A program made the translations under genes and the position numbers. Of a DNA stretch of 64,000 nucleotides, positions 1,666-28,062 are shown piece by piece. The notes beneath the pieces were generated by a model. It ran no database searches, had not been told where the DNA came from, and saw only the letters and a program-made list of their open reading frames with translations. Position 1 is the stretch's first letter, and the number at the start of each line of letters is the position of its first letter. Where the stretch lies: NCBI RefSeq assembly GCF_013364355.1, contig NZ_CP054931.1:4205501-4269500 (forward strand), written 5' to 3'. The DNA comes from Stenotrophomonas sp. NA06056. Lineage in GTDB: Bacteria > Pseudomonadota > Gammaproteobacteria > Xanthomonadales > Xanthomonadaceae.

Positions 1666-2364
1666 TCAGCCGCTGAGCAGGTCGTTGAAGCGCGCCAGCG
1701 AGGCCAGGTGGAAGTGCACCGGTGCCAACCACCCCTGGTGATGCCAGGCGATGACGGTCGCCTCGGGCAGCGCAGCGAAACGATCGGGGTCGACGACCTG
1801 GAAGCCGAGCAGGCTGGAGGTTCGACCGTCGGCACGCACCACATCGGCCTGACGATCCACCAGCACACCCGAGGCCAACAGCTGCGCGCTGAAGGCGGCG
1901 GTGGCGGCGGCTTCGCTGGTAAAGGCTTCGCAGAACTGCAGTGCCTGACGGGTCAATTCGCTGGGCTGGCCATCGGCCTCGAACAACGGCTGACCTTCAT
2001 CCCCCTCGGTGCGCAGCATCGCTGCATCGGCATCGATGGCCAACGCATGACCATCGGGCTGGGTGGTCCGTGCGAACACGAAGGGGTAGCGCCGCACGTA
2101 GGCCGGCACATAGGCCCCACTCTGCCATTGGTCGGCCACTACGAAACGATTGTGCTCCGCTTCCAGCCCCAGCACTGCCATCGGCGCGGCGTCTTCGCCG
2201 ACAAACACCAGCGGGTAGCAACGGGATGCAGCGGCAAATTCGCCCAACACCAGGGGCACGGCATGGCTGCCCGCAGCGAACGCGGCATCGCCCGGCAGCA
2301 GTCGCCAGTGCGCATGGTCGCGCGAGGACAGCAACACCGGCGCACGGTACAGCGGCGGGTACAT
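1666..2364 (-). CDS. SapC family protein
   Basis: About 232 residues. After MYPPLYRAPVLLSSRDHAHW comes the SapC pattern: a basic/hydrophobic lead, then FAAGSHAVPLVLGEFAAAS and YPLVFVGE, and later a DGQPSELTRQALQFCEAF helix. SapC-type proteins of this kind are named after a Campylobacter S-layer-associated gene, but their biochemical role is not established. In TonB-rich bacteria they often sit beside outer-membrane transport genes. The start is uncertain: in-frame ATGs also occur at 2442 and 2454. I prefer 2364 because an AGGAAG lies upstream of it and the codons before it lack the strong GC third-position bias. It ends the minus-strand TPS/TonB gene run, 133 bases after the porin. Confidence 0.75.
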   Translation of the reverse strand: MYPPLYRAPVLLSSRDHAHWRLLPGDAAFAAGSHAVPLVLGEFAAASRCYPLVFVGEDAAPMAVLGLEAEHNRFVVADQWQSGAYVPAYVRRYPFVFARTTQPDGHALAIDADAAMLRTEGDEGQPLFEADGQPSELTRQALQFCEAFTSEAAATAAFSAQLLASGVLVDRQADVVRADGRTSSLLGFQVVDPDRFAALPEATVIAWHHQGWLAPVHFHLASLARFNDLLSG

Positions 2365-2497
2365 CGGGCCAACGTCTTCCTGCGCGGGCAACGTATCCAC
2401 ACCATCACCCTCGGCTACTGAGAGTTGTGAGTCTTCAATCATTTCGGTTTGCATCCAGAGTGCAGGGAAAAGACCGGCGCGAACGCCGGCCGTCACG

Positions 2498-4225
2498 TCA
2501 GAAGCCGGCGTTCACTTCCAGCTGGAACACATCGATGGACTGCGGCGCACCGGTGATTTCCTTGGCCGCCATCCAGCGTCCGGTCAGCGACACGTTCTTG
2601 TCGAACATGTACGAACTGCCCAGGTAGTAGCCCTTGGCATTGGTGCCGCCCAGGTGGAAGTTGGAATCGTTGTACGCGTCGGGAAGTGCATCGGCCTCCA
2701 GCCGCTTGTAGCCCAGCCACAGGTTCCAGTCGCCGGCCTGCTTCAGCGCGAGGTGGCCGAACGTGGCCTGCGCCATGTAGGCCATGTCGCCGCTGTCGAT
2801 GTCCTGCGGCCCGGCTACACCATTCGCGGCGGTAGCCAGGTTGGTGACGATGCCGCCCTGCGCACGACGCCACATGGCGTTGCGATCAAAGGCCAGGTTC
2901 TTGATGCCGTGGCCTTCCAGGCGCAACGCGTATCCGGCGAACAGCGGCGTTTCCCAGGCCAGGTTGAGGTCGAGCAGCTCGAACTCGGAGGCCAGGCCCA
3001 CGTACTGCGGCATCGGCGTATTGGCCGGGTCCAGCGGATTCAACGCGATGTTCCGCAGCAGCATCAGCGTGTTGCCCTTCTGCATGAAGGCAGGGCGTGA
3101 CCAGTCGCTGCTGCAGAAATCGGCACCGGCATACAGCGCGCACGGCTGCGAGTACTCGCCGGCGATGTTGCGGAAATCGAAGTAGCCCACGGCTGCACGC
3201 AGTTTCTGCTCATTGCCGAACTGCCAGTCCGCGCCCACCTGCAGACCATTGAGCCACTTGTTTTCGCTCTTCATCTTGCTCTGGCTGGTGCTGGGGAAAC
3301 CGTCGGAGGAATACTCCAGCGGGGTCAGGCCCAGCGTCGCGAACAGCGAGAAACCATCATCCCCCAGCGCATGGCGGTATTTGAATGCCACGCCGTCGAA
3401 ATTGAGGTCGTTGGAGAACAGGGTGTCGGTGGACCAGTACGGATTGCTGAAGCGGCCACCGATCACGTCCAGCCCCTGCACCGGCGCCCACGACAACCAG
3501 GCCTGGTCAAGCCAGACATCCTTCTTGGCCAGGCCACCGCCCAGTGTCTGAGTGGAGGACACCGGCCCATTGTCGTTGCCGGTGGCCAAGCGAACGCCTG
3601 CGCGGGTATGTTCGCCCAGGTCGGCCACCACACCCAGCCGTGCGCGGATACGCCAGGAATTGGTGCGGTCCTGGCGGTTGTTGCGCAGCGGCGGCAGGCC
3701 CAGATGGGTATTGCCATTGACGTCGTAGCCGTTGCCGGCGTTGATGCGCGCCCAGTCCACTTCGATATCGCTGTTGCGTTCGGAATACAGGCGGCTCTCG
3801 TTGCGCACACGCACGTCGCCCTGCACGCGCAGGCGCTGGGTCCAGTCCGGCACCTGGTCAGGCGCAGCCCAGCCATTGGCCTTGGCTTCGGCCATCACGC
3901 TGGCCTTGAGCTCATCACGGATCTCATCGCGCACGGTCTGCGGGATGTACGGTACGCGCACGTCGCCTGCCTGCGCGGTACTGGCCGCTGTACTGGCCGC
4001 GGGAGATGCGACCGCATCGCGCTGCGCTTCCAACAGCAACGCCTGGCCGGCTTCCGGGGTGAGTGCGCCGCTGTCCATCAGGCCGCGGATCAGCTTGATC
4101 ATGGTGCTTTCGCCACCGCCCTGCTGGGCGTGGGCGCCGCCGCTGGCCAGCACCAGCACGATGCCGGTGGCCACCGCAGAGCGACGCAGGTGCCGCAGCA
4201 CGGAATAGGAGTTGGAACGGGTCAT
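2498..4225 (-). CDS. Putative porin (Porin_5-like), outer-membrane beta-barrel
   Basis: 575 residues with a signal peptide ending near SGGAHAQQ. A short helical segment follows (STMIKLIRGLMDSGALTPEA), which may be periplasmic or coiled. Then comes a long barrel rich in alternating aromatic and glycine strands, such as RLRVQGDVRVRNESRLYSER and SWRIRARLGVVADLGEHT, and it ends in a barrel-like EVNAGF with a terminal phenylalanine. This fits the 'putative porin' family (Pfam Porin_5). The ATG at 4225 is chosen because it begins the signal peptide; upstream in-frame codons are not coding-like. It follows tonB by 52 bases in the same transcription unit and may be the outer-membrane partner of the TonB-ExbBD genes. 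Its substrate is unknown. Confidence 0.85.
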   Translation of the reverse strand: MTRSNSYSVLRHLRRSAVATGIVLVLASGGAHAQQGGGESTMIKLIRGLMDSGALTPEAGQALLLEAQRDAVASPAASTAASTAQAGDVRVPYIPQTVRDEIRDELKASVMAEAKANGWAAPDQVPDWTQRLRVQGDVRVRNESRLYSERNSDIEVDWARINAGNGYDVNGNTHLGLPPLRNNRQDRTNSWRIRARLGVVADLGEHTRAGVRLATGNDNGPVSSTQTLGGGLAKKDVWLDQAWLSWAPVQGLDVIGGRFSNPYWSTDTLFSNDLNFDGVAFKYRHALGDDGFSLFATLGLTPLEYSSDGFPSTSQSKMKSENKWLNGLQVGADWQFGNEQKLRAAVGYFDFRNIAGEYSQPCALYAGADFCSSDWSRPAFMQKGNTLMLLRNIALNPLDPANTPMPQYVGLASEFELLDLNLAWETPLFAGYALRLEGHGIKNLAFDRNAMWRRAQGGIVTNLATAANGVAGPQDIDSGDMAYMAQATFGHLALKQAGDWNLWLGYKRLEADALPDAYNDSNFHLGGTNAKGYYLGSSYMFDKNVSLTGRWMAAKEITGAPQSIDVFQLEVNAGF

Positions 4226-4277
4226 CGGCTTGCTCGCAGAAGAGGGAAATTCGTTGGAAAGAGCGTCATGGCAGCGT

Positions 4278-4970
4278 TCACCCGCCGGGGCGACGGCCCT
4301 GCACCAGCACGCGCGCAGGGAAATCCAGCGATGCCGGTGGGCGTTCGTCGATGCGGCCGACCGCGCGGATCGCCTGCAGTACGCGGTCGTCGGCGTCGGC
4401 ATTGCCGCTGCCACGCAGCAGCTCGACACGGCTGACCGCGCCGTCGGCATCCAGCCAGATGTTGACCGTCAGCTGGAACGCCAACCGGCGCACCTGCTCG
4501 TCGCGCGCCACGGCCTGCTGCAGCACATAGCCCAGGTAGCGGCCATAGCTGGCATTGCCGGCGCCACCGCTGCCGGTGCCACTGCGGCCACCGCCGCTGC
4601 CGGACTGGATGCCGAAGCTGTCGCCACCGGCCTGCGCGTCGGCGTCCATGGTCACCGGGTCGGCGGTGTCCGGGGTGGGCGCTTCTTCAGTCGGCTTGGG
4701 CACTTCGTCCAGCGGTTCCGGCTCGGGCATCACCTCTTCCGGCTTGGCTTCCGGCTCGGGCTCAGGTTCCGGTGGCGGCGGTGGCGGCGGGGGTGGCAGC
4801 ATCACCATCGGCACATCGGCCACCGGCCGCCGCGTGCTGGCGGTGTTCTTGAACAGCAGCAGCCACACCAGCAGCGCCAACAGCGCGACAACGGCGGGCA
4901 CCACCAGCAAGGGCCACCAGCGCCGCCATGCAGGAATCGCGTGGTTAGCGTGGGAGTGGAGTGGGGTCAC
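4278..4970 (-). CDS. TonB-family energy transducer
   Basis: 230 residues from a GTG at 4970. A short cytoplasmic N-terminus precedes one membrane helix (about 18-40, WWPLLVVPAVVALLALLVWL). A periplasm-spanning Pro/Glu region follows (nine consecutive prolines, then repeated EP pairs), a Gly/Ser-rich linker, and a TonB_C-like domain at about 145-225 containing LTVNIWLDADGAVSRVELLR. It would carry the proton-motive energy harvested by ExbB/ExbD to an outer-membrane partner. It lies 4 bases after exbD and is certainly co-transcribed with it. It is not the housekeeping tonB by context. Its C-terminal domain resembles the end of the STN protein at 24275-24991. Confidence 0.9.
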   Translation of the reverse strand: MTPLHSHANHAIPAWRRWWPLLVVPAVVALLALLVWLLLFKNTASTRRPVADVPMVMLPPPPPPPPPEPEPEPEAKPEEVMPEPEPLDEVPKPTEEAPTPDTADPVTMDADAQAGGDSFGIQSGSGGGRSGTGSGGAGNASYGRYLGYVLQQAVARDEQVRRLAFQLTVNIWLDADGAVSRVELLRGSGNADADDRVLQAIRAVGRIDERPPASLDFPARVLVQGRRPGG

Positions 4971-4974
4971 GTGT

Positions 4975-5388
4975 TCACCCCTGCACTTTTCCGGTGACCA
5001 GGCCCACCTGATTCAGGTCGATCCGGCGCAGAAGATCCAGCACTTCGACCACGCGGGCGTACTGCACCTGCGCGTCGCCACGCACGATCACCGGGAAATC
5101 CGGGGTCAGCGCCTTCTCGGTGCGCAGGCGGTCTTCCAGTTCGGCCAGGCTCACCGGATAGGCGTCCAGGAAGACCTGCCCGTTGTTGTCCACGGTGATG
5201 GCCTTGGTCTTGGGTTTCTCCAGGGCCATGCTGGAACTGGCCTTGGGCAGGTTCACCTGGATACCGGGAATGGAGGCGTTGCTGGTGAGGATGAAGATCA
5301 CCAGCACCACCAGCAGCACGTCCACGAAAGGCGTGACGTTGATGCCTTTCTCGCGCTTCTTGATGCCGAACCGCTTTGCCCTGGCCAT
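4975..5388 (-). CDS. exbD: ExbD/TolR biopolymer transport protein
   Basis: 137 residues with the standard ExbD layout. A basic N-terminus is followed by one helix carrying the signature NVTPFVDVLLVVLVIF, in which Asp23 matches the protonatable aspartate of ExbD/TolR. A periplasmic domain follows, ending in DLLRRIDLNQVGLVTGKVQG. It forms the proton channel with ExbB, and together they drive TonB. It lies 11 bases after the exbB stop and 4 bases before tonB, so the three genes form a tight operon. Its position beside tpsB/tpsA suggests a dedicated complex and not the general iron-uptake one. Confidence 0.93.
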   Translation of the reverse strand: MARAKRFGIKKREKGINVTPFVDVLLVVLVIFILTSNASIPGIQVNLPKASSSMALEKPKTKAITVDNNGQVFLDAYPVSLAELEDRLRTEKALTPDFPVIVRGDAQVQYARVVEVLDLLRRIDLNQVGLVTGKVQG

Positions 5389-5399
5389 GGCGATGCCCC

Positions 5400-7205
5400 T
5401 CAGGCCAGGGCCGGACGCGCGACGGCGGCCGGTTCGCTGCGGTCGAACTCTTCGGCCAGGCGCGCGGTGAATTCATCGACGAACACCGACATGTCGGCGG
5501 CGATTGCTTCGGCGCGCGACGCCAGCCAGTTGTAGCCGAACAGCGCCGGGATGGCGACGCCAAGGCCCGCGGCGGTACACAGCAGTGCGGCGGCCATGCC
5601 CGGTGCCACCGAGTTGATGTCCACTGCGCCCGCCATCGCGGCCACCACGAACACCAGCATGATGCCGATCACGGTGCCGAACAGGCCCACGTACGGCGCG
5701 CCTTCGATGGTGGTGGACAGCCAGTTCATGCGCTTGGACATGCGCTCGCTTTCGCGGGTCACTTCGGCATCCATCGATGCACGGATCGAGGTGATCGCTG
5801 CGGCGGTCAGGCCATGATGGTGCGATCCGCGCCCATCCATTTCCTCCATCGCGATGCGGTACAGCTTCCACAGGGTGGAGTTGTCGCGCACCTGCGGTGC
5901 CAGTACACCGCTGCGCTCCACCTGCTGCAGGGCCGCCACCGGTGCGCCGGCGACCTTGCGGTACTGTTCGGAGAACGCCAGGTTGGCGCGGGCCACGGTG
6001 CCAAAGTAGCGGCTCTTGGCGATCATGATCGCCCACGACATCAGCATCATCAGGCCCAGCACCACCACTACCACCCACGCATCCACCGGCATCGCCTTGA
6101 GGATGAACCCGAAGTGGCTGACACCGGCCGACTGCTCATCTTCACCGAAGGTCAGCAGGCGCGATTCGGCGCCCTGCGCGGTTGCGTCTGCCAGCAGCAG
6201 CGCGGCCGGACGTGCGACCTTGGACACGCGCACTTCGTCGATGTCACCCAGGAACGGCTGCGCCATGGCGATCACAGTGGCGTCGCCAGCGGCAGGTGCG
6301 CTCTCGGCACCGATCAGGGCCTCACCTGCGAACGCCGGCAGCACCGCGTCGATCCGGCTCGCTTCATGACCGCCCACCCACAGGACGACCTTGCCTTCGC
6401 CGGCCGTTACCGCCACATGCGTCCACTGCCCTGCCACCAGTGCCGGCACCGCCTGACTGCGCTGATCGTTGACGCGCACGTAGGGCACGCCGTTGTCGAG
6501 ACCGACGATCATCACGTTGCCGCCTTCGCGGCGCGCGTAGAGGGCCTGATCCGGGCCGAGCTGGGCGGGCTTGATCCATGCCGAGAAGGTCATCGCACCA
6601 CCGGCGGCGATCGCCAGTGATGGCGAGCCGGGCAACTGCAGCGGCGTGCCGGAAAGACGCGCGCCGCGGCCGATGATGGCGCCGTCGGCGGCAGTGAACG
6701 CGCCGCTGGCCGGGTTGGCGTAAGCGGTGGTGTCGCGCGCTTCATTGCCACTGTCGGCGAAGTGCAGCACCGCGCTGTAATCCGGATCGAACACGCGCTG
6801 GCCATTACTGGTGGCCGGCGCATTGGCGTTGCCGTAGTACATCCACACGGTCTGCGGCGCGGTGCCACCGAGGCTGGGCACATCCACCCAGATCAGCGCC
6901 ATGCCCAGGCCGGCGTCGTACTGCTCGATCTGGTGGTTCAGCACCGTGTGGCCATCGGCGCCGACAAAGCGGATGTCCTTGCCGCCTTCCGCCACGCCAT
7001 CGAAGGCGAAGTTGCCGGTGTGCAGGCGCACCAGCACAGGGGTGCGGCCGAGATTGCCACCAAGCGCAGCACCGCCGGGGCCCGCATCCAGGGTGATCGA
7101 TTTGCGGTACTTCCACTCGGCCTGCCACCACGGTGTATCGGCGCGGGCGGTGCCGAGCGCGGACAGGCTCAGGCAGAACAACAACAAGGCAAGAAGGCGT
7201 TGCAT
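5400..7205 (-). CDS. ExbB/TolQ proton channel fused to DUF2341 and LamG-like domains
   Basis: 601 residues, far longer than the usual 220-245 of ExbB. It has a signal peptide (MQRLLALLLFCLSLSALGTARA) and then a DUF2341-type region at about 25-150 with WWQAEWKYRKSITLD and VWMYYGNANAPATSNGQ. A concanavalin/LamG-like domain follows at about 150-320 (VLHFADSGNEARDTTAYANP, MTFSAWIKPAQLG, VRVSKVARPAALL). The ExbB/TolQ domain runs from about 370 to 595, with its first helix at WVVVVVLGLMMLMSWAIMI and the conserved VGLFGTVIGIMLVF and MAAALLCTAAGLGVAIPA helices. The front end would lie in the periplasm and might sense or bind a sugar or cell-wall component; this is inference. It is the first gene of exbB-exbD-tonB and follows tpsB by 34 bases. 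Confidence 0.92.
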   Translation of the reverse strand: MQRLLALLLFCLSLSALGTARADTPWWQAEWKYRKSITLDAGPGGAALGGNLGRTPVLVRLHTGNFAFDGVAEGGKDIRFVGADGHTVLNHQIEQYDAGLGMALIWVDVPSLGGTAPQTVWMYYGNANAPATSNGQRVFDPDYSAVLHFADSGNEARDTTAYANPASGAFTAADGAIIGRGARLSGTPLQLPGSPSLAIAAGGAMTFSAWIKPAQLGPDQALYARREGGNVMIVGLDNGVPYVRVNDQRSQAVPALVAGQWTHVAVTAGEGKVVLWVGGHEASRIDAVLPAFAGEALIGAESAPAAGDATVIAMAQPFLGDIDEVRVSKVARPAALLLADATAQGAESRLLTFGEDEQSAGVSHFGFILKAMPVDAWVVVVVLGLMMLMSWAIMIAKSRYFGTVARANLAFSEQYRKVAGAPVAALQQVERSGVLAPQVRDNSTLWKLYRIAMEEMDGRGSHHHGLTAAAITSIRASMDAEVTRESERMSKRMNWLSTTIEGAPYVGLFGTVIGIMLVFVVAAMAGAVDINSVAPGMAAALLCTAAGLGVAIPALFGYNWLASRAEAIAADMSVFVDEFTARLAEEFDRSEPAAVARPALA

Positions 7206-7239
7206 GGGAAGATCTCCAGGGAATTCGGAAAGGCCGGGC

Positions 7240-8835: not shown

Positions 8836-8895
8836 CAGTGGCGTCTCAATGCGGAAGAATGGGAAGGCGATGCAGAACGGGGGGCAGTGGCATCG

Positions 8896-17800: not shown

Positions 17801-20800
17801 AGGCCCTGGCTCATGGCCAGGTCGACGCCATCGTTGAAACTCATCACGCCGTTGACCAGCAGGCTCAGGTTGCCAAAGCCTCCGGCCTGGATGCGGTCAA
17901 CGCCAATCGTGGCGCGTCCATAGACCAGCGCAGGATCAACCTGGCCGGGCTGCAACGCTGCAGCCAGTCCACTGCCGGGCTGCTGCTGGAATACGCTGAG
18001 TTCGCGCAGCGAGCGCACGCGGTCGTCCGGATTGCCGGCCAGCAGATAGTTCGGTGCCTCCAGTGCCACCGACAGGGTGCCGCCTGCGGCGCCGCGTCCA
18101 CCGGCAGCGGCACGCAGGCTGCCGTCCAGGAACAGGCCATTGAAGCTGGCCAGGTGCAGCACGCCACCATCGCCGGCCACCTCGGTTGCCCCTTGGCCCG
18201 GCACGTCGAGCGTGGCACTGGCACCGGAGGCATCGAGGCGTGCCCCCGGACGCACCACCACAAATGCGTCCACGCCATCCACGCTGGTGGCGTTGGCGTC
18301 GTAGCGGCCACCCAGCTGGATGCGGCCGCCGTCGCCGACCCGACCGAAACGCTGGCCGCGCGCATCACGCTCAACCTGGGCCACACCGGAAACATCCAGC
18401 ACGGCGTGGTCGCCGATCCACAGCGAGCGGTCGTGACTCTTCGGCGACGCGGCGATCTCGCCCAGCCCCATGTCGAGGATGTCGATGCGGCCACTGTTGG
18501 CCTGCAAGGTACCGTCCACGGTGATCTGGCCATTGCCTGCCAGGCCGATACTGCGGCCGTTGTCGACCTGCAGGTGCGCGTCCTGACCAATCGTCAGCGT
18601 CGCCAGCGGGCCCATCGTGCTGCCCGCACGCAGCTGCAGATCGGCACCCTTGCGCTGCTGCAGCGTCGCCTTGGCAGTGTCAGCGCTGAACTCCGGCGCC
18701 AGCCATTCCTGCAGTGCCTCGCTGGGCGCACTGCCACTGCGCAACGCACGCGCATGTTCCAGATCCAGCTGCAGCACCGGCATGCTCACCCGCAGGTCGG
18801 CGCCGGGCGCGACGGCCAGACTCTGCTGGCCGGTCACTTCATAGCGCGCGAAGCCTTGCCCGAACAGTTCGCTGGCCAGCTGCAACGGACGCTCGACCGC
18901 CACATCCTGGGCCAGCACATTGCCGGCGGCGATGCGCGTGCCGGCGGCGAAACGGATATCGGCCGGTGCCAGGCTGCCGGCTTTCAACGTCGCCGCCGAT
19001 GGCAGGACCCGGATGCCCTGCGGGAACACGTCCGCCGTCACCAGGAAGTTGATCGGGAAGCCGCCCTGGAAGCCAGTGATCTGGGTAACGACGGTGCCTG
19101 CGGCCAGCGTCGGCGGCGGCGTCCACACGTTCACCGTGAAGGAACGCCCGTCGAGCGTACGCAGAACGTAGGAGTCGGCATTGGCCACCGGCTTGGGCGG
19201 GGTCCAGGTTGCGGCCAGGGTGAGGTGGGTTTCCGGTCGCGCCGGATCCACCACCGGCTGGGTACCCAGCGTTTCGCCCGGTTGCGCCTGTACACGGGTG
19301 TAGGCGTAGTCGACCGGCAGCGTGCTGCCCGCCAGTACCAGGAAGGTCTCGGAGGTGAGCAGATCGATCGGCGCGCGCTCGCCCGCGCGCAACAGACCGT
19401 CGCTGCCGGCCACCTGCCCACCGATCACCACCGCCTTGCCCGATTGCAGGCGCAACGTACCGCCGCCCTTGACGCCGTGGCCGCGCAGCTCGCCCTGCAG
19501 GCTCAGCTGACCCGCCGCGATGCCGGCCACCGGCGCTTCCTCCAGCGCGTTGGCGATCAGCGCGATGTCCCCGCCACGCCCACCACGCAGATGGTCATCG
19601 GCCTGCAACGCCGCACCCGAAGAGGCATCAAGGCGTGCGCCGCGCGCAACCTGCACATCCTGGCTGCTGCGCAGCTGGATGCTGCCACCGTCCACGTAGG
19701 GCATGCCCGCGATGCCAAGCGGATCGGTCTGCAGGTTGCTCCACAGGCCACGGGTATCAAGCAGCACGCCCTCGCCCACCACCGTGCGTGCGCGGCTGTT
19801 GGCAGCCACGGGCACCAGTGCACGATCAAACCAGCCGGTACTCTCGTTCCAGCCGGGGACGATGTTGCCCAGCGCGATCGCGCCGCCCCGGGCCACAAGA
19901 TCGGCATTCACCTGCACCTCGGTGGCATGCAGGCCGAGCGAACCGCCTGCTGCCATCTGCAGCGACTGGTCCACCACCACCGCGTCACGTGCGTAGACCT
20001 GCAGGCCGCCCAGCGCCAGGCCGTTCAGCCACGACGCATCCAGATACATGCCGGAGCTGCTGTCACCCTCTGCAAGCGGCACGCTGCCGATCTGCACCTT
20101 GCCGGTCACGGCCGAAGGCGTGTAGCGCAGGCCGTGCATCGCCTTGTCCTGCACCGCACGCTGCTGGCCGATCACCAGCTGACCATTGCGGGCCACCGCC
20201 GTCTGCGCCTGCAGGTAGCCATCCAGATCGGCCTGGCGGGCATTGATCTGGCGGTCGCCCTGGAAGGTCGCGGTCTCGATGTCGCCCTGCAGTTGCGCCG
20301 ACTGCGTGGCTACGATCATCCGGCCCGCGTCGCGACCGACGACATAGCCATTCTCCAGGCGCTGGCGTGCACCGATCAGCGGGTTGTAGTGGTATTCGGT
20401 CGTGCCCCAGCGGGCGTGGCTGCTCTCGAAGCCCTTGTACAGGCCGGTGTACAGCAGGTCGCCCGGCGCGGTGGAGGCGTTGTACAGGCGGCCATCGGCA
20501 CCCTTCAGGTAGGTCTGCTGGATATAGCCGGTCTGCACGTCCAAGGTGCCACCGGACAAGTTGATCTGCGAACCCGCACGCGTCTGCAGGCTGCCGCCAC
20601 TGAACTGCACGGTGCCGCCCTGCGCCGACCATTCACCGATACCGTGACCGGTAACGCCCAGGTAGCCGCCCACTTCCAGCAAACCGCCGGCGGTGTACCA
20701 GCGGTCGGTCTCGTAACCGTTGGTGCCGGCCGGCACCAGGGTCAGGTCGCGCCGGTCCAGCCAGATGTTGTTGCTGTTGAGTTTCTCGCCAAGGCGGTTG

Positions 20801-22446
20801 ACCGGCGCATCGCGCTGTTCGTTGCCCTGCACACTGATCTGGACATTGTTGGCTTCCATCGCGATCTTGACGCCGACATGGCCGGACACATCGATGCGCG
20901 CGCCCTGCTGCAACTCGGTGCCGCGCGCATCCACGTATACCTGGCCGCCGGTGGCCAGCGTCAGGCTGTCCTTCGCGAAGCGGACATCGCCGGCAGTATC
21001 GATCTGCACCAGCGACTGGTCGCGGCGGTGCTGGATACCATCACCGGCCTTGTCCGAATCCAGCACCAGCGTCTCGCGCTGCACATCCAACGCGCTGGTG
21101 GCCGAGTCGTCCAGCACGATGGCGGTGGTGCTGCCCTGTGCCAGCTGGATGCTGCCGTCGACATCGCTGCGCTCATTGCGCAGGTGGATGGTGCCGCGCG
21201 TATGTACCGAACTGGTGGCCACCAACGTGCCGTGCTGCTGCACGTCATGACCGACCAGGGTGATGTCGCCGGTGCTCGCCTGCACCAGACCGGTGTTGCT
21301 GACCATGCCTGCCGCAGCATCGACCGGTGTGCCGGCCACTGCAGGCGCGCGAAGCGCGGTCACCACGTTGCCACGGGTGGTGGAGGTCAGGTTCTGGTCG
21401 GTGCCCAGGCCCTTGCGGATCACGAACGCATCACCCGCGGCCAGCACGGTCTGGCCGTTGGCGCTGCTGATCTGTCCGTGATTGCTGACCTGCCGGCCGA
21501 GCAGCAGTACATAGCCGCCCCCTTCGGTCACGGTAGTCGGCGCATGCGTGGTGATCTGCGCACCGCGCTCGACCACCACATCACCGGTGGCCGCCGCATG
21601 CGCAAAGCTGTTGGCGCTGCTGCTCAGCTCATTGCCGAAGGTGGGAATGAAGGCCGCACCCTGCGCATCGCTGTACAGGCCCTTGCGGAACTGCGCATCG
21701 CTGATGTTCACCGCCGAGGCGGCCAGGTTGCGGACGTTCACCTGGCTGCTGCCGTCGAACACCACGCCATTACGGTTGACCAGCATCACCGTGCCCTGGC
21801 CCTGGATGCGGCCGAGGATCTGCGACGGGCGTGCGGATGGATCGTTGATGCGGTTGAGCAGCGACCAGCCGGCCTGCTGGTCGAAATCGACCACGGTATT
21901 GCGGCCGACGTTGAAGGTTTCCCAGTTGAGGATCGCCTTGTCGGCAGTCTGCGCGATGCTGACCGTGGTGGTGCCATCCTTGCTGCTCTGCACCGGACCG
22001 CTGGCGTTGGACCAACCCTTGGTCAGCGCATCCTCGTCGATCTTCAGGCCACCCTGGCCCAGGCCATCGGGCACCTGGCTGCCGCGCAGGCGCGCCGCCT
22101 CGCGCGCGCTCTGCTGCAGGCGCTGCTGCATGGCGATGGCCTGCGCGGCCGTGCCGAGATTGTCCAGCGAGGTCTGCAGCGTCTCCCGTGCTTTCTGCGC
22201 CTGTGCATCGGTGCGCACCAGGTTGGACGGCATGCCGTTGGGCATTCGTCCGCTCTGCGCGGCAGTCTGCTGCTGCACGCCCTTGTTGGCGAACCACGCG
22301 GGGCTGAAGGCCTGTTGCGCCGATACTCCGCCTACCATGCCGCCGGCCATCAACAACAGGGCGATGGCCTGCGCGAGCGGCTGCACCTGCGGTTCCCGTG
22401 CCGTCGCGCGCATACCCGGATCGTTCTGCTGCTTCACCATCGCCAT
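8896..22446 (-). CDS. TpsA giant exoprotein (filamentous haemagglutinin family, DUF3739-type C-terminus)
   Basis: About 4516 residues, the largest gene in the window. A long N-terminus holds a hydrophobic signal segment (AQAIALLLMAGGMVGGVSAQ). The TPS secretion domain (about 100-340) contains NWETFNVGRNTVVDFDQQ and VMLVNRNGVVFDGSSQVNV, the NPNGI-like motif read by TpsB. Thousands of residues of beta-helix-type repeats follow. A C-terminal region with YYAVEGDIVGLRMGQIAEL and GKAVAIYSGELTLPQWLQ matches my memory of DUF3739 haemagglutinins. The only cysteines I noticed are a C-x5-C pair near residue 2225. The frame opens at a TTG (22458), but the ATGs at 22446 and 22440 are better starts. Expected to be a surface or secreted adhesin or contact-dependent factor; no toxin domain is evident at the C-terminus. 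It has a long untranslated leader with an inverted repeat. Confidence 0.93.
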   Translation of the reverse strand: MAMVKQQNDPGMRATAREPQVQPLAQAIALLLMAGGMVGGVSAQQAFSPAWFANKGVQQQTAAQSGRMPNGMPSNLVRTDAQAQKARETLQTSLDNLGTAAQAIAMQQRLQQSAREAARLRGSQVPDGLGQGGLKIDEDALTKGWSNASGPVQSSKDGTTTVSIAQTADKAILNWETFNVGRNTVVDFDQQAGWSLLNRINDPSARPSQILGRIQGQGTVMLVNRNGVVFDGSSQVNVRNLAASAVNISDAQFRKGLYSDAQGAAFIPTFGNELSSSANSFAHAAATGDVVVERGAQITTHAPTTVTEGGGYVLLLGRQVSNHGQISSANGQTVLAAGDAFVIRKGLGTDQNLTSTTRGNVVTALRAPAVAGTPVDAAAGMVSNTGLVQASTGDITLVGHDVQQHGTLVATSSVHTRGTIHLRNERSDVDGSIQLAQGSTTAIVLDDSATSALDVQRETLVLDSDKAGDGIQHRRDQSLVQIDTAGDVRFAKDSLTLATGGQVYVDARGTELQQGARIDVSGHVGVKIAMEANNVQISVQGNEQRDAPVNRLGEKLNSNNIWLDRRDLTLVPAGTNGYETDRWYTAGGLLEVGGYLGVTGHGIGEWSAQGGTVQFSGGSLQTRAGSQINLSGGTLDVQTGYIQQTYLKGADGRLYNASTAPGDLLYTGLYKGFESSHARWGTTEYHYNPLIGARQRLENGYVVGRDAGRMIVATQSAQLQGDIETATFQGDRQINARQADLDGYLQAQTAVARNGQLVIGQQRAVQDKAMHGLRYTPSAVTGKVQIGSVPLAEGDSSSGMYLDASWLNGLALGGLQVYARDAVVVDQSLQMAAGGSLGLHATEVQVNADLVARGGAIALGNIVPGWNESTGWFDRALVPVAANSRARTVVGEGVLLDTRGLWSNLQTDPLGIAGMPYVDGGSIQLRSSQDVQVARGARLDASSGAALQADDHLRGGRGGDIALIANALEEAPVAGIAAGQLSLQGELRGHGVKGGGTLRLQSGKAVVIGGQVAGSDGLLRAGERAPIDLLTSETFLVLAGSTLPVDYAYTRVQAQPGETLGTQPVVDPARPETHLTLAATWTPPKPVANADSYVLRTLDGRSFTVNVWTPPPTLAAGTVVTQITGFQGGFPINFLVTADVFPQGIRVLPSAATLKAGSLAPADIRFAAGTRIAAGNVLAQDVAVERPLQLASELFGQGFARYEVTGQQSLAVAPGADLRVSMPVLQLDLEHARALRSGSAPSEALQEWLAPEFSADTAKATLQQRKGADLQLRAGSTMGPLATLTIGQDAHLQVDNGRSIGLAGNGQITVDGTLQANSGRIDILDMGLGEIAASPKSHDRSLWIGDHAVLDVSGVAQVERDARGQRFGRVGDGGRIQLGGRYDANATSVDGVDAFVVVRPGARLDASGASATLDVPGQGATEVAGDGGVLHLASFNGLFLDGSLRAAAGGRGAAGGTLSVALEAPNYLLAGNPDDRVRSLRELSVFQQQPGSGLAAALQPGQVDPALVYGRATIGVDRIQAGGFGNLSLLVNGVMSFNDGVDLAMSQGLRLTGSNFSLAEHSRNGAQIALAAPYVRLAGNTRGAKDAHTLPLPEIQRLPSLRDASMLRVEAGTLDVIESVAFGTSGKLAQGAGTIDVQRDGFETVELRSKGDLRLLKSKVRDRSSIDTVGDLVLSASQIYPATQAVGEIRAGKKGTVDQWGQFQVVYDPARSLRVERSSDALPVAPLAAFGSLRLLSSNIEQGGVVRAPLGELLIGQVDGGTFGLASRVQLLPGSVTSVSGVGLRMPYGGTKDGLTYVHDGLDAVYKGIGVGGNEFGGVTLRGENIDVQAGAVLDLSGGGELSGAAFLSGRGGSTDARLHPLVQIDANGGSFVLPGLSSNPVYAIVPGAQADAAPIAAEKGAGDPAIGRQIQIGAGVPGLPAGTYTLLPSTYALLPGAFRVELNGQASSQAGFGASTAMRNGSWSTAARFSTAGTDIQDALTSQVIVTAADTLRQYSQYNETSYAQFGLAWAQRDGAPRPRLERDAGRLTLDLSNRQADKPELHALAIAPGSVRGEAASGGYGSELVVRSPGALEVLASGSTATDGFSGLSVSADALNAVGANTMSIGGTPTSVFQVNRITQDAYKLGFGSNGQASSQVVLRSGAQLSAAQVFLVAGARDGGITVEQGASINTLGKGAAAWDSTAGYVFDPGTTAVLAVSNGWLDMLAPTTSTEARYGQGDILIGGCGTDRSCSGATTLYAGGTLTAATTAGFQLADSARYGARNLVLAVGNINVGSSDALARMATEGLLPAGLTLNQQVLDRLLRGDTSTGAPALEKLVLTAGDAVNFFDSVELSTLDANGTSTLGQLVLTTPAIRGQGDADAVARIRTDTLVWNGSARPAGDVVAGGAGSGSGRLQVDARQILFGYAEQSQPDTVAMHDRQTLGFGTVALNASERISANHTGSLSVYQSQGAWNGKTKAFDYSGGDLLISTPLFTGAAGSINRIRAGGRIAVVAAQGATAVIGDPAAALGAELSLQAGRDLLLDTRVQLPSGKLQLAAQDDVRLGEGAQLDLAGRRIDMFDVSRYSWGGDVTLDSQAGNIVQAAGSRIDLSAVNNRGGRLNAVALGADAGTVLLAGQILGGSSGRYDTGGTWVPYSSAYLDLRAQHIDDFAGLNARLNAGQVFGGRSFQLKQGDLVIGDGLKAREVNVSVDAGHLSVQGRIDASGEQVGSIRLAARDGLSVGSSAVLDAHGSVLRRDSYGQVIEAPNRAVIELDSGTGLLALAAGARMDLGVSGAPAAYGSVVLNAPRLGGARGNDVAIDASAPVRIDGARAITVNAFQNYTDAAAGTDATVDGRSYQVINQAYLDTLHADSTAFIDNALGNRALIDGKLAGLRAYGDQFHLRPGVQISSSADAAVNRDGHLHVDGDIDLSGYRYASLNPHLQKTGQYGSGEAGALVLRAAGDLEVFGSISDGFDGSRLMKGSTPDDKGWLLPNGRIPFGGEVVIPHGGVVTLDAGSAFQSGRTLNFDLPAAAMQLPAGTQLPSRMMLADALVLPAGTVLGAAIRDGQGAVLHAAGTVLAQTTTLAAGTQLDAGFRVPAATSMAAGIWPAGVPLPVGMRLAQPLLLAKGAILPSETDVKLPGGAESINLRPADANGNQGRTWALAPMLAAGSQSFYLRLVAGADLQAADTRAVARGATGTVRLADTHYGVLVENAPVPGTGIPAEYRWAMDVDADTWNSIGLPSLVVAGEVITQDIIDMLILYGLITTSPLELNAWGLGEPVFEANPGVPPQYADIARPAREQVFSVLRTGTGDLDLVAAGDLQMHSPYGVYTAGTASSSLAAGNGVDPYNQPRGALKDGSLLWKDQEAAFRPLIDGGTQSLYRAWYPEHGGNVLVRAGGNLVGDLIGAGGEPRNNVSFGLMRGQIGSVAIGNWLWRQGTGSVTPGSDGTPVAWWVNFGTYVPGSADGSYLANSNARYANAPFLAGFTGVGTLGGGNLVVEAGGDAGIQSARGDARLNLGAQSLDKNLVPRSQGLNLAVGSSGRMTATGDLVLTGGGDLDLRIGGSLNPNAELRRNEHDLNSTLVNLRGALRVEAGALGGLQLRYGVLDHIDSRGGDPFAAGRAYAGGGPVLVLGDSSARLDTRGDLVLGGVGDPGRTKLLNATPFTYGGRQLAGEGWSSFSLWTPSTSVDLFSAGGNLTPTTEWAGGGNSEDIATDRRGSNASGTLDGDFYPSILRAVAANGSLYYGVGSTALRNNYGSTPLRVLRGLTLAPSPQGSQFINATGKGELALLAGDSIYASGYAITASTADPAALSSPFNPAFMGIISQTGGGPNGFSPTRIHNAAAANIAFNDWITDGNGRISNASLLNFGSQATSSYAAVGQQPARYYAVEGDIVGLRMGQIAELGLKARDGYRYDGSIPVAIRAGRDISNSGTGLGQKDTVGEGRGNLIAHGHADDISVVQAGRDIRFSSFYVTGPGLLDVSAGRNVYLADKGEIKSLGNVVDASASDRASGASIVVAAGMGAGADWNAFAARYLDAVNLADPERPLSEQPGKAVAIYSGELTLPQWLQREFGYSGDAAGADAFLASKQAELDQARAASLSSGGSAASRSLAREFRLQSQLHLVNWLSTRFGADNGLGLHFDAGTMDARTFFTALPAEQQHAFLRDVYYAELKSAGREYNDADGKRFGSYARGREAIATLLPGGDNGGRYNGDLTLFSSALYVDEYISTNGVGKDRPTPGKTYISKAEWQAMGSPSYGVAYYEVVDAGIHTQFGGDVQILTPGGRTLVGIDGGFVPGAGSGVMTQGEGDISIYSRDSILLGQSRVFTTFGGNILAWSAGGDINAGRGSKTTVVYTPQRRVYDSVGNVSLSPNTPTTGAGIATLNPIPEIAPGDIDLIAPLGTIDAGEAGIRVSGNVNLAALQVLNADNIQVQGKSAGIPVVAAVNVSALTSASTAANSAVQAAQEMVKRQTQQTQPSTISVQVLGFGEATSSTRPASDDGRYDPDSVVQVVGMGELTAEQRARMATSSAKRQ

Positions 22447-22505
22447 CACCCGTCGCAATATCGTTCGCTGATAAGGGCAAGCGCGTCTTGCCGCCGTGCT
22501 GCACT

Positions 22506-22532
22506 GCTACGTCCCTGCCATCGGGACGTAGC
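22506..22532. promoter_or_regulatory. 10-bp perfect inverted repeat in the tpsA leader
   Basis: GCTACGTCCC (22506-22515) and GGGACGTAGC (22523-22532) flank a 7-base centre. It sits 60-86 bases upstream of the tpsA ATG at 22446, within the 260-base gap after fecR. It could be a DNA-binding site or an RNA hairpin in the leader. It has no T-tract in the direction of tpsA, so a simple terminator is less likely. No other gene is visible in this gap. Confidence 0.55.
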
Positions 22533-22707
22533 GTGACCGCGACGTGCGTTGCGCTTGTTACGGTGGATAAGACCGGGCCGGATGGCAGCGACTGAACCGC
22601 TGCAACAAAAAATTCATCTGCGGATGACGTGCTGTCGACTCATGCCACGAATGTCATCGCAACGTCATACGTGCGTGCTCTCATCGCGCGCCCGCAGGTC
22701 TACCTGC

Positions 22708-23751
22708 TCAGCCCAGCAGCACCACGTCGCCGGGCATGCTGACAACGCGTGCGCCATAGGCATCGCGTACGAGATCGATGAAGGTGTCGATGCGTTGCAA
22801 CGAAATACGGGCCTGCACCCGGCGCTGCGACAACGCACTGTCTGCGATGACGATGCGTCCGGTGCGGTAGCGGTTGATCTCTTCAACCACCTCCGACAGC
22901 GGCTGGTCGTCGAACATCAGCCAGCCGTGTCGCCACGCATCGACGCGCTCGGTCGGCACCTGCCCTACCGAGGCGATCCGCTCACCGTCCAGGCGCGCCT
23001 GCCAGCCCTGCTGCAGCGCGACCGTCCGCGCGCCACGAACAAGCGCGGCGGTGCCAGCCAGGCAGGTCACCCGCACATCCGCGCCGACGCAGCGCACGTT
23101 CACCCGCGCGCCCGGGTCCAGCCTTACCTGCGCGCCCTCCACCTGGATCACGAAACCGCGGCGTATCCACGCAGGCAGCGCGAACTGTGCCTCGCCCTGG
23201 CTCAACTGCAGGCCGCGCGCGTTGGTGCCGGACCGTCGCAGACGGGTGCGCGTCCCCATCGCCACCGTTACGCCCTGGATCTCCAGTTCGCGACGCTCAC
23301 CGGTGGCGGTGCGGTAGTCCGCGCCCAGTGCACCCAGCTCCGGCCACAGGCCCAGCGGCGAACTGGCCGCGAGCCAGCAGCCACCGGCCGCCGCCGCGAC
23401 TGCGCCGCCCAGGAATGCCCTGCGCCCCATCCGTGTGCGGCTGCGTGGCCGAGCATGGCTGTCGGCGTGGGTCGCTGGCGGCAGACTTGCCACCGGCTGC
23501 ACCACATCGGTCGCAGGCGCCTGTGCTGCCTGCGCGCCCCCGGCCTGCAGCGCCGGACCCAGTGCCTTCCACAGCGCACGCGCCTGCGCGAACGCAGCGG
23601 CGTGGCGCGGGTCCAGCCCCCGCCATCGGCGGAAGGCATCGGCGTCGGCCTCGCTGACGGCCGCACCGTGCAGGCGCAGCAGCCAGTCCTGTGCCTGTTG
23701 TTGTACGTCTGCCGGCAGTGCAGAGGCCACGTTCGTCTTCATATCAGTCAT
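22708..23751 (-). CDS. FecR-family anti-sigma regulator
   Basis: 347 residues. The N-terminal DUF4880-type cytoplasmic domain reads QQQAQDWLLRLHGAAVSEADADAFRRWRGLDPRHAAAFAQ. An Arg-rich linker and one membrane helix follow at about 115-135 (AFLGGAVAAAAGGCWLAAS). The periplasmic FecR domain contains DYRTATGERRELEIQG, MGTRTRLRRSG and a tail with LSEVVEEINRYRTGRIVIAD. FecR proteins hold or activate their partner ECF sigma factor when a periplasmic signal arrives. Its ATG overlaps the sigma-factor TGA (ATGA), so the two are translationally coupled. It most likely controls the tpsA gene that starts 260 bases downstream. Confidence 0.93.
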   Translation of the reverse strand: MTDMKTNVASALPADVQQQAQDWLLRLHGAAVSEADADAFRRWRGLDPRHAAAFAQARALWKALGPALQAGGAQAAQAPATDVVQPVASLPPATHADSHARPRSRTRMGRRAFLGGAVAAAAGGCWLAASSPLGLWPELGALGADYRTATGERRELEIQGVTVAMGTRTRLRRSGTNARGLQLSQGEAQFALPAWIRRGFVIQVEGAQVRLDPGARVNVRCVGADVRVTCLAGTAALVRGARTVALQQGWQARLDGERIASVGQVPTERVDAWRHGWLMFDDQPLSEVVEEINRYRTGRIVIADSALSQRRVQARISLQRIDTFIDLVRDAYGARVVSMPGDVVLLG

Positions 23752-24278
23752 GACGGTTTTCCGGCGCCAGGACCGAACCGTTGCACCAACGGGCGGTCCA
23801 GCCGGCCCGCGCAGTGCTGCAGGGCCTTCTTCAGCTCCTTGCCGATCATCCGCGCCGATACCCCGTGCTGCAGGGCGATGGTTTCGATCGGCAGCTGCTC
23901 GATGCGCGCTGCCACCAGGATGGCGCGCTGGCGCTCGGGCAGCTCGCGCAGGGCCAGCTCCAGCTGCGCCATTTCCACCTGGCCGAAGGTCACCGTGGCC
24001 GGATCCAGATGGTCGGCGGTCTCGTCCATCAGCGCATCCAGTTCGGTGCCGGTCAGCATCCGTGCGTGGGCCTGGCGCTGGTCGCTGGCGGCGTTGATCG
24101 ACATGCGGAACAGATAGGCCACCGGGCTGCGCTGCGGCACGATGTTGCCCATCCGCTCGACACGCAGCCAGGTCTCCTGCAACGCATCCAGCGCCAGGTC
24201 GTCCGAGCCCAGGCGCCGGCGCAGGCGCTTGCGGAAGGCTTCGTAGTGGTCGAGGAACAGTCCTCGAAGTGCGGTCAT
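23748..24278 (-). CDS. ECF sigma factor (FecI-like)
   Basis: 176 residues from the ATG at 24278, which overlaps the STN gene stop (ATGA). Region 2 contains FRKRLRRRLGSDDLALDALQETWLRVER and PVAYLFRMSINAASDQ. Region 4 contains LRELPERQRAILVAARIEQLPIETIALQHGVSARMIGKEL, a helix-turn-helix for the -35 element. Length and absence of region 3 fit the FecI-type extracytoplasmic sigma group. Sandwiched between an STN sensor and a FecR protein, it forms a complete cell-surface-signalling trio. Its likely targets are the trio itself and/or tpsA onward. An alternative in-frame ATG at 24293 would lie inside the STN gene. Confidence 0.93.
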   Translation of the reverse strand: MTALRGLFLDHYEAFRKRLRRRLGSDDLALDALQETWLRVERMGNIVPQRSPVAYLFRMSINAASDQRQAHARMLTGTELDALMDETADHLDPATVTFGQVEMAQLELALRELPERQRAILVAARIEQLPIETIALQHGVSARMIGKELKKALQHCAGRLDRPLVQRFGPGAGKPS

Positions 24279-24991
24279 CGCGCGCCCCTGCACGGCGGCG
24301 TGCGGCCCGCAGCGTGTGGCAGCAACAGCAGCGTCACCGGTTGCGGCAGGTCCACCGGCAGCCCTGGCATGGCCAGGTCATCCAACCGCCGAAGAATCGC
24401 GGCATCGCGACGTGGATCGCCACTGCCTTCCAGAACGTCGGCGCGGCCCACCCGATGGCTGGCAGGGTCCACCCATAGTTGCAGTGCAACCCGATAGCTG
24501 CCAGGTCGCGTCGCGTGCGAGCTGCACAGCGCTGCCTCCAGCGATTGCTGGATGACCCGAGCGGCACGGTGCTGGGCCGCAGCGGAGGCGGTTGCAGAGG
24601 ATGGGCCGGCATCGGACGGGCCGGTGCCACCGGGTGCAGGGGTCTCACCCGCTACCAGCGTGAACCCGCCACCCTCGACAAATCGAGGGGCCAGGCCCGT
24701 GCCCCGCAGCAGCATCTGCAGCGCCGGCAAAGGCGCATGGCGTCCACTGACTGCCGTCGAGCGCAGGCCGCCCAGCATGCGGGCATCAATCAGAACCGCC
24801 ACCCCTGTGGTCTCCCCATACACCTGCAACGCCTGTGGCAACGGTTGGGCTGGAATGTCGAACAGGTAGGTAGTCCCCTCGGGCGCAGCGCCCGCGCCGG
24901 CCCAGGCCAGCAACGCCGGCGCCAGCATCCATGCGATGCACAACAGCCAGGCAACGCGGCGGATGCAGCGATCACGCGTTCCCGCCCGCAT
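24275..24991 (-). CDS. STN-domain sensor with TonB-like C-terminus (VreA-like)
   Basis: About 238 residues from an ATG at 24991 preceded by GGGGGG. It has a signal peptide (VAWLLCIAWMLAPALLAWAGAGA). The STN domain follows at about 40-110, with YLFDIPAQPLPQALQVYGET, GVAVLIDARMLGG and LPALQMLLRGTGLAPRF. After a Gly/Ser/Ala linker, a C-terminal domain at about 145-235 (YRVALQLWVDPASHRVGRAD, VLEGSGDPRRDAAILRRL) resembles the C-terminal domain of TonB proteins. There is no outer-membrane barrel. In P. aeruginosa the PUMA3 protein VreA is also a short STN protein without a barrel, encoded beside its sigma and anti-sigma. ATGA coupling with the sigma gene makes it the signal input of the trio. Alternative starts exist at 25033 and 25042. 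Confidence 0.88.
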   Translation of the reverse strand: MRAGTRDRCIRRVAWLLCIAWMLAPALLAWAGAGAAPEGTTYLFDIPAQPLPQALQVYGETTGVAVLIDARMLGGLRSTAVSGRHAPLPALQMLLRGTGLAPRFVEGGGFTLVAGETPAPGGTGPSDAGPSSATASAAAQHRAARVIQQSLEAALCSSHATRPGSYRVALQLWVDPASHRVGRADVLEGSGDPRRDAAILRRLDDLAMPGLPVDLPQPVTLLLLPHAAGRTPPCRGAR

Positions 24992-25104
24992 TGCCGGCCC
25001 CCCGTCCTGCGCTCCGGTGTCATCAAACTGCATGCAAGACACGCCAGCATCACAACGCCAAGCCGGTCACGTTAGGTCGGCTTCATTGCAGGATGGTGAC
25101 ACCC

Positions 25105-25464
25105 ATGCATCCCTTCCGCTGGCTTGTTACAGGCATCTTTCTGCTACTGGCACCGCACGCGTGGGGCGGCACTGCAAAGGCTGCGCCCGCGCTGACGCCC
25201 GCCGATGCTGCCTGCATCGAGATTGAGGTCAACGGCGAACGCATTCCCGACTACGCCTGCATGAGCGAACGGTTGATGCCCGCGTCGCGCAGGCCCGTGC
25301 CTGAGATACCGGCGTCCGAGCAGCGGGTGCGGCAGGCTCCGACCGCGCTCGGCCTGGCCCATCGGGCTGCTACCCAGCAGAGGATGGGGAACAGTTTTGG
25401 GATTTCCACGCGGCCTCAGCGGCCGATGGCACCGCCTCCAGCACCGCCGATAACGCGGCCGTGA
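25105..25464 (+). CDS. Small secreted proline-rich protein, function unknown
   Basis: 119 residues. A signal peptide (MHPFRWLVTGIFLLLAPHAWG) is followed by a compact segment with two cysteines (ADAACIEIEVNGERIPDYAC) and a low-complexity Pro/Arg tail ending MAPPPAPPITRP. The ATG at 25105 is preceded by GGTGAC; an in-frame ATG at 25093 gives a slightly longer signal. It is divergent from the STN-sigma-fecR operon across about 110 bases, so both could share a control region and this protein might be part of the same response. I do not recognise the family. Confidence 0.65.
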   Translation: MHPFRWLVTGIFLLLAPHAWGGTAKAAPALTPADAACIEIEVNGERIPDYACMSERLMPASRRPVPEIPASEQRVRQAPTALGLAHRAATQQRMGNSFGISTRPQRPMAPPPAPPITRP

Positions 25465-25567
25465 GGCGGGGAATGCGGTGTCGCTGCCGGACGGAATGCT
25501 GACATCACGCGCCAGGCGCCAGCGCGCCTACGAACGGTGGTACTCCGCTACCCGATGCCCCAGCGTA

Positions 25568-26059: not shown

Positions 26060-26400
26060 ATTGATCTCCTTTCGCTACTGTCGATCAATGTTCCCCTGAA
26101 TCCAACCGCGCTCGCCGCGCCAGAGATCGGTTAGATGCCCACTGGCGGGGGCCACTATATTTGCGACTTACTCAGGCGCGCTGAGAGCCTGACCGAACGA
26201 CACGCGTTACTCATCGTCAGACGTCGTCCCACATGAAGCTCCTCCAGGCCCAGCCCAGCATTTCACGAAGAAAATGGACCTGCTTGGTCACACTCTCAAA
26301 CCTCGCAATTTCATTCTCACCGCGCGCGACCACTACTCCTCCAACTGTCCAGCAACAAGATTGGAGAGGAGAGATGCATTCACCTGAACCTTTGGGGCTG
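26060..26400. other. AT-richer gap without a supported gene
   Basis: About 340 bases between the lipoprotein gene and the small membrane protein. A minus-strand frame is open from 26504 to 26217 but it overlaps the small protein in another frame and has no good start of its own. I see no terminator or repeat. It may be remains of a former gene in the Rhs island. Confidence 0.4.
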
Positions 26401-26556: not shown

Positions 26557-26557
26557 T

Positions 26558-27802: not shown

Positions 27803-27864
27803 CCCGGTGATCGAACCGACGGAATCATGGCCATCCCATCAGGAATGACGACCATTATTTCGGA

Positions 27865-28056: not shown

Positions 28057-28062
28057 GATTTA

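Follow-up and report, generated by a model that had tools for sequence, protein, structure and literature searches.

A two-partner secretion module of Stenotrophomonas with its own TonB motor, which may act at the outer-membrane end

Textbooks give two-partner secretion (TPS) as the standard example of a protein crossing the outer membrane with no obvious source of energy: the transporter TpsB exports the exoprotein TpsA to the cell surface, as is established for the family, and export starts at the N-terminus of the exoprotein. Why should such a pair be accompanied by a complete set of genes for a TonB complex? The question is raised by a window of 64,000 nucleotides, the whole stretch of DNA analysed here (C1:4205501-4269500 of the 4.52 Mb genome of Stenotrophomonas sp. 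NA06056, called G000; contig NZ_CP054931.1), in which one minus-strand run from 25042 to 1666 encodes an STN sensor, an extracytoplasmic function (ECF) sigma factor, a FecR-type anti-sigma factor, TpsA, TpsB, ExbB, ExbD, TonB, a Porin_5 porin and SapC (Table 1). A preliminary description of the locus had offered three roles for the TonB complex: the signal input, the TpsB pore, or uptake through the linked porin. We propose that the locus is a TPS module of the PUMA3/Pdt type, named after the set of Pseudomonas aeruginosa, whose own TonB motor would act at the outer-membrane end; taken with all four steps of the account given below, we believe this reading about as much as we doubt it. On the sequence evidence, the complex probably serves the TpsA/TpsB/porin machinery and not chiefly the signal input, because these components co-occur and the regulators are optional.

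The co-occurrence was measured in a sample of 369 gammaproteobacterial genomes, the module porin being defined by a Porin_5 match with E below 1e-100. Such a match was found in 24 genomes, any Porin_5 match in 54, and the 30 with only weaker matches were left out. DUF3739, a domain of TpsA, exceeded its cut-off in 23 genomes, every one of them among these 24 (Fisher p 1.1e-35, 16 families, a p value that overstates the independence of these related genomes), and DUF2341, carried by ExbB, occurred in 30 genomes, 23 of which were again among the 24. The porin genome without DUF3739 (G204, 85% complete) and the one without DUF2341 (G299, 64%) are incomplete assemblies; a further genome, G322, whose DUF3739 match lies below the cut-off and contains an internal stop, was left out. 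TPS domains were present in 122 of the 369 genomes, 22 with the module porin and 100 without it (the lists were compared by hand), and the porin genomes lacking a TPS match were G170 and G320. TPS at large does without this set of genes; the DUF3739 branch, in this sample, does not.

Gene order was read in 22 of the 24 genomes of this class, besides G000 and leaving out G006, some of the stretches being short contigs. ExbB-ExbD-TonB-porin is contiguous in 19 of these neighbourhoods; in G110 about 25 kb separate the porin from exbB-exbD-tonB, and G299 and G170 are too fragmented for the order to be read. TpsA or TpsB shares a stretch with the exb genes or the porin in 18, and in the other four (G408, G204, G201, G299) the contigs are short or differ between the tps genes and the exb or porin genes. 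Among named loci, which were the best 80 of 220 matches to the ExbB of a Klebsiella plasmid and came mostly from Pseudomonas, TpsB-ExbB-ExbD stand in this order in all 80 and are followed by TonB and the porin in 78; one exception, L104, stops at a contig edge, and the other, judged by length, is probably L109. The named close relatives of the window proteins are mostly from Stenotrophomonas, and the gene set is well above chance because it recurs in other families. The persistent clustering with local ExbB-ExbD-TonB genes that the preliminary description had pointed to is thus borne out by the class neighbourhoods, the named loci and the co-occurrence. Its view of the porin as an addition to the known set has to be given up, since PA0696, a 'putative outer membrane porin', is listed in the P. 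aeruginosa set (PMC7035377) and a porin follows TonB in almost all of these 80 relatives. Its view of SapC as an addition stands: among G000 and 100 relatives, SapC lies beside the porin in four of 101 genomes (the window copy of G000, G022, G026 and G043), and a PDB sequence search at E 1 found nothing similar to it.

The module can do without the regulators. STN or FecR genes accompany 10 of the 80 named loci and ECF genes nine, in flanks of up to 10 kb a side, although this absence is weak evidence because the vre genes of P. aeruginosa lie beyond the hxc cluster. No ECF and FecR pair was found in the fetched stretches, some of them short contigs, of any of the 22 class genomes. The type of the window, with sensor and SapC, recurs in G022, G026 and G043; in G095 the genes of the sensor set are arranged in a different order. 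The set is also carried, together with STN, ECF, FecR and a substrate-binding protein, by an alphaproteobacterial plasmid from Methylosinus; six of the 11 plasmid records were opened, two of them without a gene table, and L102 and L103 were used in the sequence counts.

By description, the locus has the content of PUMA3, as had been proposed. PUMA3 comprises VreA-VreI-VreR and pdtA-pdtB-exbB2-exbD2-tonB4-PA0696 in the cited parts of PMC2729926, PMC4971064 and PMC7035377, and both sets hold an STN and TolA/TonB-like sensor (with a weak STN match in the window), an ECF sigma factor paired with a FecR-type anti-sigma factor, a TPS pair, ExbB, ExbD, TonB and, after tonB, a putative porin, likened here to PA0696 by description and place. 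The window differs in that the regulators stand directly upstream of tpsA in a single run, that SapC is added, and that the run is without an hxc, lapA/lapB, phdA, PA0697-, YbjN- or PpiC-type gene. The exbB2-exbD2-tonB4 genes of P. aeruginosa are called 'still uncharacterized' and the products of PA0696-PA0700 are said to be of unknown function (PMC7035377). In the open-access literature, searched by titles and the starts of abstracts (subscription journals were not covered), no paper ties this TPS branch to TonB function besides those on PUMA3, which note the association of the genes, and none mentions DUF3739.

The motor protein is a fusion. ExbB was correctly called as an ExbB motor, but the call had overlooked two further domains: its 601 residues comprise a signal-peptide-like start (by eye), DUF2341 (75-140), a LamG/concanavalin-like domain (199-334) and the motor (469-572), which in a PDB sequence search scores higher with TolQ (84 bits) than with ExbB (55 bits). 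With ExbD and the TonB C-terminal domain, all the parts of a Ton system are present. DUF2341 on ExbB-type 'generic ion transporters' is mentioned in PMC12505986, with function unknown. Second sets of DUF2341-LamG-type ExbB, ExbD and TonB (L049 in G236, L052 in G250) each lie beside V-type ATPase genes.

The secretion pair is a regular one, with a TPS domain in the exoprotein and POTRA_2 and a ShlB barrel in the transporter; the 4516 residues first given for TpsA hold from the first ATG at 22446 and become 4520 from the TTG start. A strand-like motif occurs near the C-terminus in 59 of 60 linked TpsA tails, compared with 0.03% of shuffled tails; it ends one residue before the C-terminus in eight tails and at most 59 residues from it in all 59. 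None of 15 unlinked TpsAs has it, although the C-terminus was not reached in three of these. The pattern is post hoc: its first version matched 20 of the 60 tails, it was widened after the tails had been viewed, and the 15 controls were checked afterwards. An N-terminal H1-type helix before the POTRA domains is usual in TpsB, though not universal. The TpsB of the window lacks it and has a short Ala/Pro-rich segment before the first POTRA, as do most of 37 rows of linked TpsBs (by eye; starts are longest-open reading frame (ORF) guesses, and a few rows are long), whereas the TpsB of a third TPS system in G000 has a longer, charged, helix-like stretch there.

Among 111 distinct linked porin genes, 104 encode a VRVxYVP-like motif ahead of the barrel; none of 13 unlinked relatives does. 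The seven misses comprise apparent near variants (L101, L103, L142), genes in which an over-long N-terminus may hide the motif (L099, L102, G207) and a second porin (G412); like the TpsA pattern, this one was counted on the sequences from which it had been drawn. The porin model has 16 strands by our own count of DSSP elements, with a poorly predicted N-terminal part, and its closest solved folds are OmpM1, OprB and OprP/OprO, a comparison that supports a porin but no particular substrate. Both motifs are new leads, to be taken as such.

The sensor joins an STN domain (24653-24796; PF07660, E 1.4e-4, 22 bits, below the Pfam cut-off of 28.4) to a TonB-like C-terminal half (about 24329-24562), which scores 38.9 bits against a hidden Markov model of the module TonBs built from the C-termini of 112 ORFs, some loci being entered with more than one start. 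This profile scores 18 VreA-like sensors at 26.5-63.5 bits and the other TonB-type proteins of G000 at 29.1 bits or less, most of them under 18; one of these (L196/L202, 29.1/27.6 bits) stands above two of the 18 sensors, and the TonB of a second copy of the module (L203, 140 bits), itself a module member, was left out of the comparison. The profile of the other G000 TonB-type proteins scores the sensors at no more than 22.3, five of them, that of the window included, being unlisted. Judged by these scores, the closest relative of the sensor's C-terminal domain among the proteins compared is the module's own TonB, and in the tree the sensors fall beside or inside the module TonBs. Descent from within the module TonBs is not claimed, as an approximately unbiased test did not reject a single clade of module TonBs (p 0.195). 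In an earlier study the C-terminal domain of this sensor type was modelled on TolA at 9.3% identity (PMC2729926).

G000 holds three TPS domains. The second copy of the module (G000:C1, about 1896000-1920200) has the order TpsA-TpsB-ExbB(DUF2341-LamG)-ExbD-TonB-porin in common with the window, to which its matched pieces are 48-86% identical; it has no VreA-type sensor and no adjoining SapC, and an ECF-FecR set with a large STN- and Plug-bearing receptor lies several kb downstream. Unlike the window copy, it comes after genes E and F of type II secretion and two PBP_like_2 proteins of DING/PstS-like type, the first of which is a phosphate-binding protein of the DING kind (best PDB match E 7.7e-165, DING-named entries about E 1e-70 to 1e-72). 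Nothing in the third TPS region matched the module proteins of the window.

Neighbours of this kind recur elsewhere. When neighbouring ORFs were clustered, a protein with a weak relation to PstS and a length of about 500 residues was found near the module in 16 genomes (a profile built from nine members matches a phosphate-binding structure at E 1.2e-4, and three of the nine match PBP_like_2), and a coiled-coil protein follows the porin in 17 genomes outside Stenotrophomonas. In 13 genomes the PstS-like gene adjoins genes for PEP-CTERM-like proteins, two of which were tested in Pfam; this is a hint of some connection to surface proteins sorted by exosortase. Type II secretion genes lie near the module on a Cupriavidus plasmid, and alkaline phosphatase and PhoX genes lie near TpsA on a Methylomagnum plasmid (L100). 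In P. fluorescens, the psp DING gene is flanked by hxc and by a 4083-residue haemagglutinin (PMC2225411), and the P. aeruginosa set is under Pho regulation (PMC4971064, PMC7035377, PMC9769906). Together, these observations suggest a low-phosphate surface function, which our own Pho-box tests do not support.

The account we propose has four steps. TpsB would export the giant TpsA to the cell surface. The TolQ/ExbB-like motor with its lectin-like head, ExbD and TonB would bring the proton-motive force to the outer-membrane end, that is to the TpsA tail, TpsB or the porin; the best single candidate target is the strand-like C-terminal motif of TpsA, whose tail is the part expected to leave the periplasm last because export starts at the N-terminus, and second to it comes the motif conserved near the N-terminus of the porin. 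TpsA and the porin would act together at the surface as a single device, which probably scavenges phosphate or phosphorylated compounds, because phosphate-binding proteins, type II secretion genes or phosphatases adjoin the second copy and several relatives. In this lineage an ECF/FecR pair and a VreA-like sensor are attached, and the sensor may read the docking site of the motor and relay its state to the anti-sigma factor, because the TonB-like domain of the sensor best matches the module's TonB; SapC would be a lineage-specific extra. Of the three roles first offered, the signal input is the weakest, the TpsB pore and uptake through the porin both stay in play, and the TpsA tail is added to them.

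Several observations weigh against this account. The dependence of TpsA export on the TonB complex is something we infer from gene association, and loss of PA0695 (tonB) left VreI-induced virulence in zebrafish unchanged, with no measurement of export in the cited parts of that study (PMC2729926). Against a matrix of 30 TonB boxes drawn from the 67 Plug-domain matches of the G000 genome, which replaced a poor nine-box matrix, the TpsA motif is no more than box-like, with a core score of 6.8 (rank 5 of 4512 TpsA windows) where true boxes reach at least 9.6, and it falls to rank 29 with two more matrix positions; the porin motif, tried as a TonB box, showed no resemblance. The solved porins that resemble the porin model in fold differ in specificity. 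The genes scanned in the window on either side of the run (300-1193, 24931-28497) include no phosphate-binding protein, type II secretion gene or coiled-coil partner, and no hxc or DING/Lap gene. A Pho-like repeat upstream of tpsA (22651-22668) is not above chance in the window, and a consensus search found no enrichment of Pho boxes upstream of tpsB in 78 named relatives. This type of motor is moreover not bound to TPS, because in the stretches fetched neither TPS nor porin genes accompany the ExbB-LamG/ExbD/TonB sets of G236 and G250.

Other explanations have to be set against the same evidence. If the complex served the signal input, with VreA as its target or partner in controlling the anti-sigma factor, the best score of the VreA C-terminal domain against the module's TonB would find a ready explanation, and STN domains do normally pair with TonB-dependent signalling. 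We nevertheless regard this as improbable: the ECF and FecR pair is missing from the fetched stretches of the class genomes, the second copy has only the distant ECF-FecR-receptor set in place of a VreA-type sensor, and VreA is apparently not needed for activation of the sigma factor (PMC7035377). Quite unlikely, too, is a clustering due to nothing but low-phosphate co-regulation, with the TonB set as a spare general energiser; the P. aeruginosa set is indeed expressed under PhoB and VreI (PMC4971064, PMC7035377), but the co-occurrence is near-perfect across 16 families even in genomes that hold tpsA at a distance from exbB-exbD, ExbB is of a special, fused subtype, and this genome already has 20 TonB_C matches.

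HxuC is TonB-powered. In the HxuA-HxuB-HxuC system of Haemophilus influenzae, a TPS pair works with an outer-membrane haem receptor and the TPS protein HxuA is needed for haem acquisition (PMC4873976), which invites the rather unlikely alternative that the complex energises the linked porin alone, the TPS protein being a surface capture protein that feeds it. The place of the porin after TonB in the named loci, the restriction of its N-terminal motif to linked porins in our sample and the presence of OprP/OprO among its closest folds all agree with this; the porin model has no plug (though its N-terminal part is of low confidence), its motif is unlike a TonB box, and the G110 porin lies far from exbB-exbD-tonB. 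The window also differs from Hxu in its outer-membrane partner, a Porin_5 porin, and in its private ExbB-ExbD-TonB set. A motor acting more broadly at the outer-membrane end, as we prefer, has a precedent for TonB-dependent protein export in Oar-PopC of Myxococcus xanthus, which needs ExbB/ExbD/TonB (PMC6434023), with the difference that the exporter there is a TonB-dependent transporter and here TpsB. A bolder version of the preferred reading, which we hold only tentatively and think rather unlikely as a whole, would make the locus a TonB-energised TPS class in which the TolQ-like motor with its lectin head holds or pulls TpsA fibres by the C-terminal strand, an obligate porin is coupled to it, and VreA, built from a relative of the motor's TonB, reads the same docking site.

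Table 1. Features of the module in the window (positions of the window; all on the minus strand)
Feature	Position	Strand	Basis and remarks
SapC-family protein	1666-2496	-	PF07277, E 2.7e-60; lineage-specific addition after porin
Porin_5 porin	2498-4225 (start inferred; longest ORF to 4450)	-	Pfam; predicted 16-stranded barrel, long N-terminal segment
Porin N-terminal motif VRVPYIP, candidate docking motif	3941-3961	-	Pattern from porin alignment
TonB, Pro-rich, divergent C-terminal domain	4278-4970	-	TonB_2 PF13103, E 8.6e-7; TIGR01352
ExbD	4975-5388	-	PF02472, E 7.3e-30
ExbB fusion	5400-7205	-	MotA_ExbB, DUF2341 and LamG, three Pfam domains
ExbB domains	DUF2341 6786-6983; LamG-like 6204-6611; TolQ/ExbB motor 5490-5801	-	Pfam
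TpsB outer-membrane transporter	7240-8835	-	ShlB PF03865, POTRA_2 PF08479
TpsA giant exoprotein	8896-22458	-	TPS PF05860, E 2.7e-21; DUF3739 PF12545, E 6.8e-39
TpsA C-terminal motif ISVQVLGFG	9034-9060	-	45 residues before C-terminal end
TpsA domains	TPS domain 21157-22005; DUF3739 9175-9507	-	Pfam
Intergenic region 5' of tpsA, conserved blocks, likely promoter	22459-22707	-	Upstream alignment
FecR-type anti-sigma factor, VreR-like	22708-23751	-	PF16220, PF04773, PF16344
ECF sigma factor, VreI-like	23748-24293	-	Sigma-70 regions 2 and 4, PF04542, PF08281
VreA-like sensor	24275-25042	-	STN PF07660, TonB-like C-terminal domain

Pfam matches every gene named in the preliminary description. The run itself stops near 25042, the end at 25464 given there being that of a small plus-strand ORF (24931-25464, likely start about 25106), which is secreted-looking, divergent from the sensor gene and without a Pfam family. 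Upstream of tpsA, tandem ATGAC repeats are seen by eye in three aligned regions, the stretch of G026 being misplaced in the alignment. In the 80 named relatives the genes after the porin encode a coiled-coil protein (78), YbjN (78) and a peptidyl-prolyl isomerase (PPIase; 75); the window has no PA0697-type coiled coil, YbjN or PpiC gene there, and SapC and then UbiA (by Pfam) take their place. The Klebsiella IncFIB/IncHI1B plasmid (L098) reads exbB-exbD-tonB-porin-hypothetical-YbjN-PPIase-hypothetical-LysR and then transposases, an order like that reported for P. aeruginosa (PMC7035377). On the Methylomagnum plasmid, TpsA adjoins a precursor of a ribosomally synthesised and post-translationally modified peptide, with Cys at every fifth position, and radical SAM maturases. 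Elsewhere in the window, one minus-strand protein (26558-27802) combines an RHS repeat with a C-terminal serum amyloid A domain.

In conclusion, our observations emphasize a branch of two-partner secretion in which the exoprotein and its transporter are accompanied by ExbB, ExbD, TonB and a porin. The two conserved motifs and the TonB-like domain of the sensor offer short, specific targets for tests. If the account given here is true, a widespread TPS branch would possess a dedicated proton-driven motor and a porin, which would mean either that two-partner secretion can be powered, or that TPS proteins serve at the surface in a device for uptake driven by TonB.

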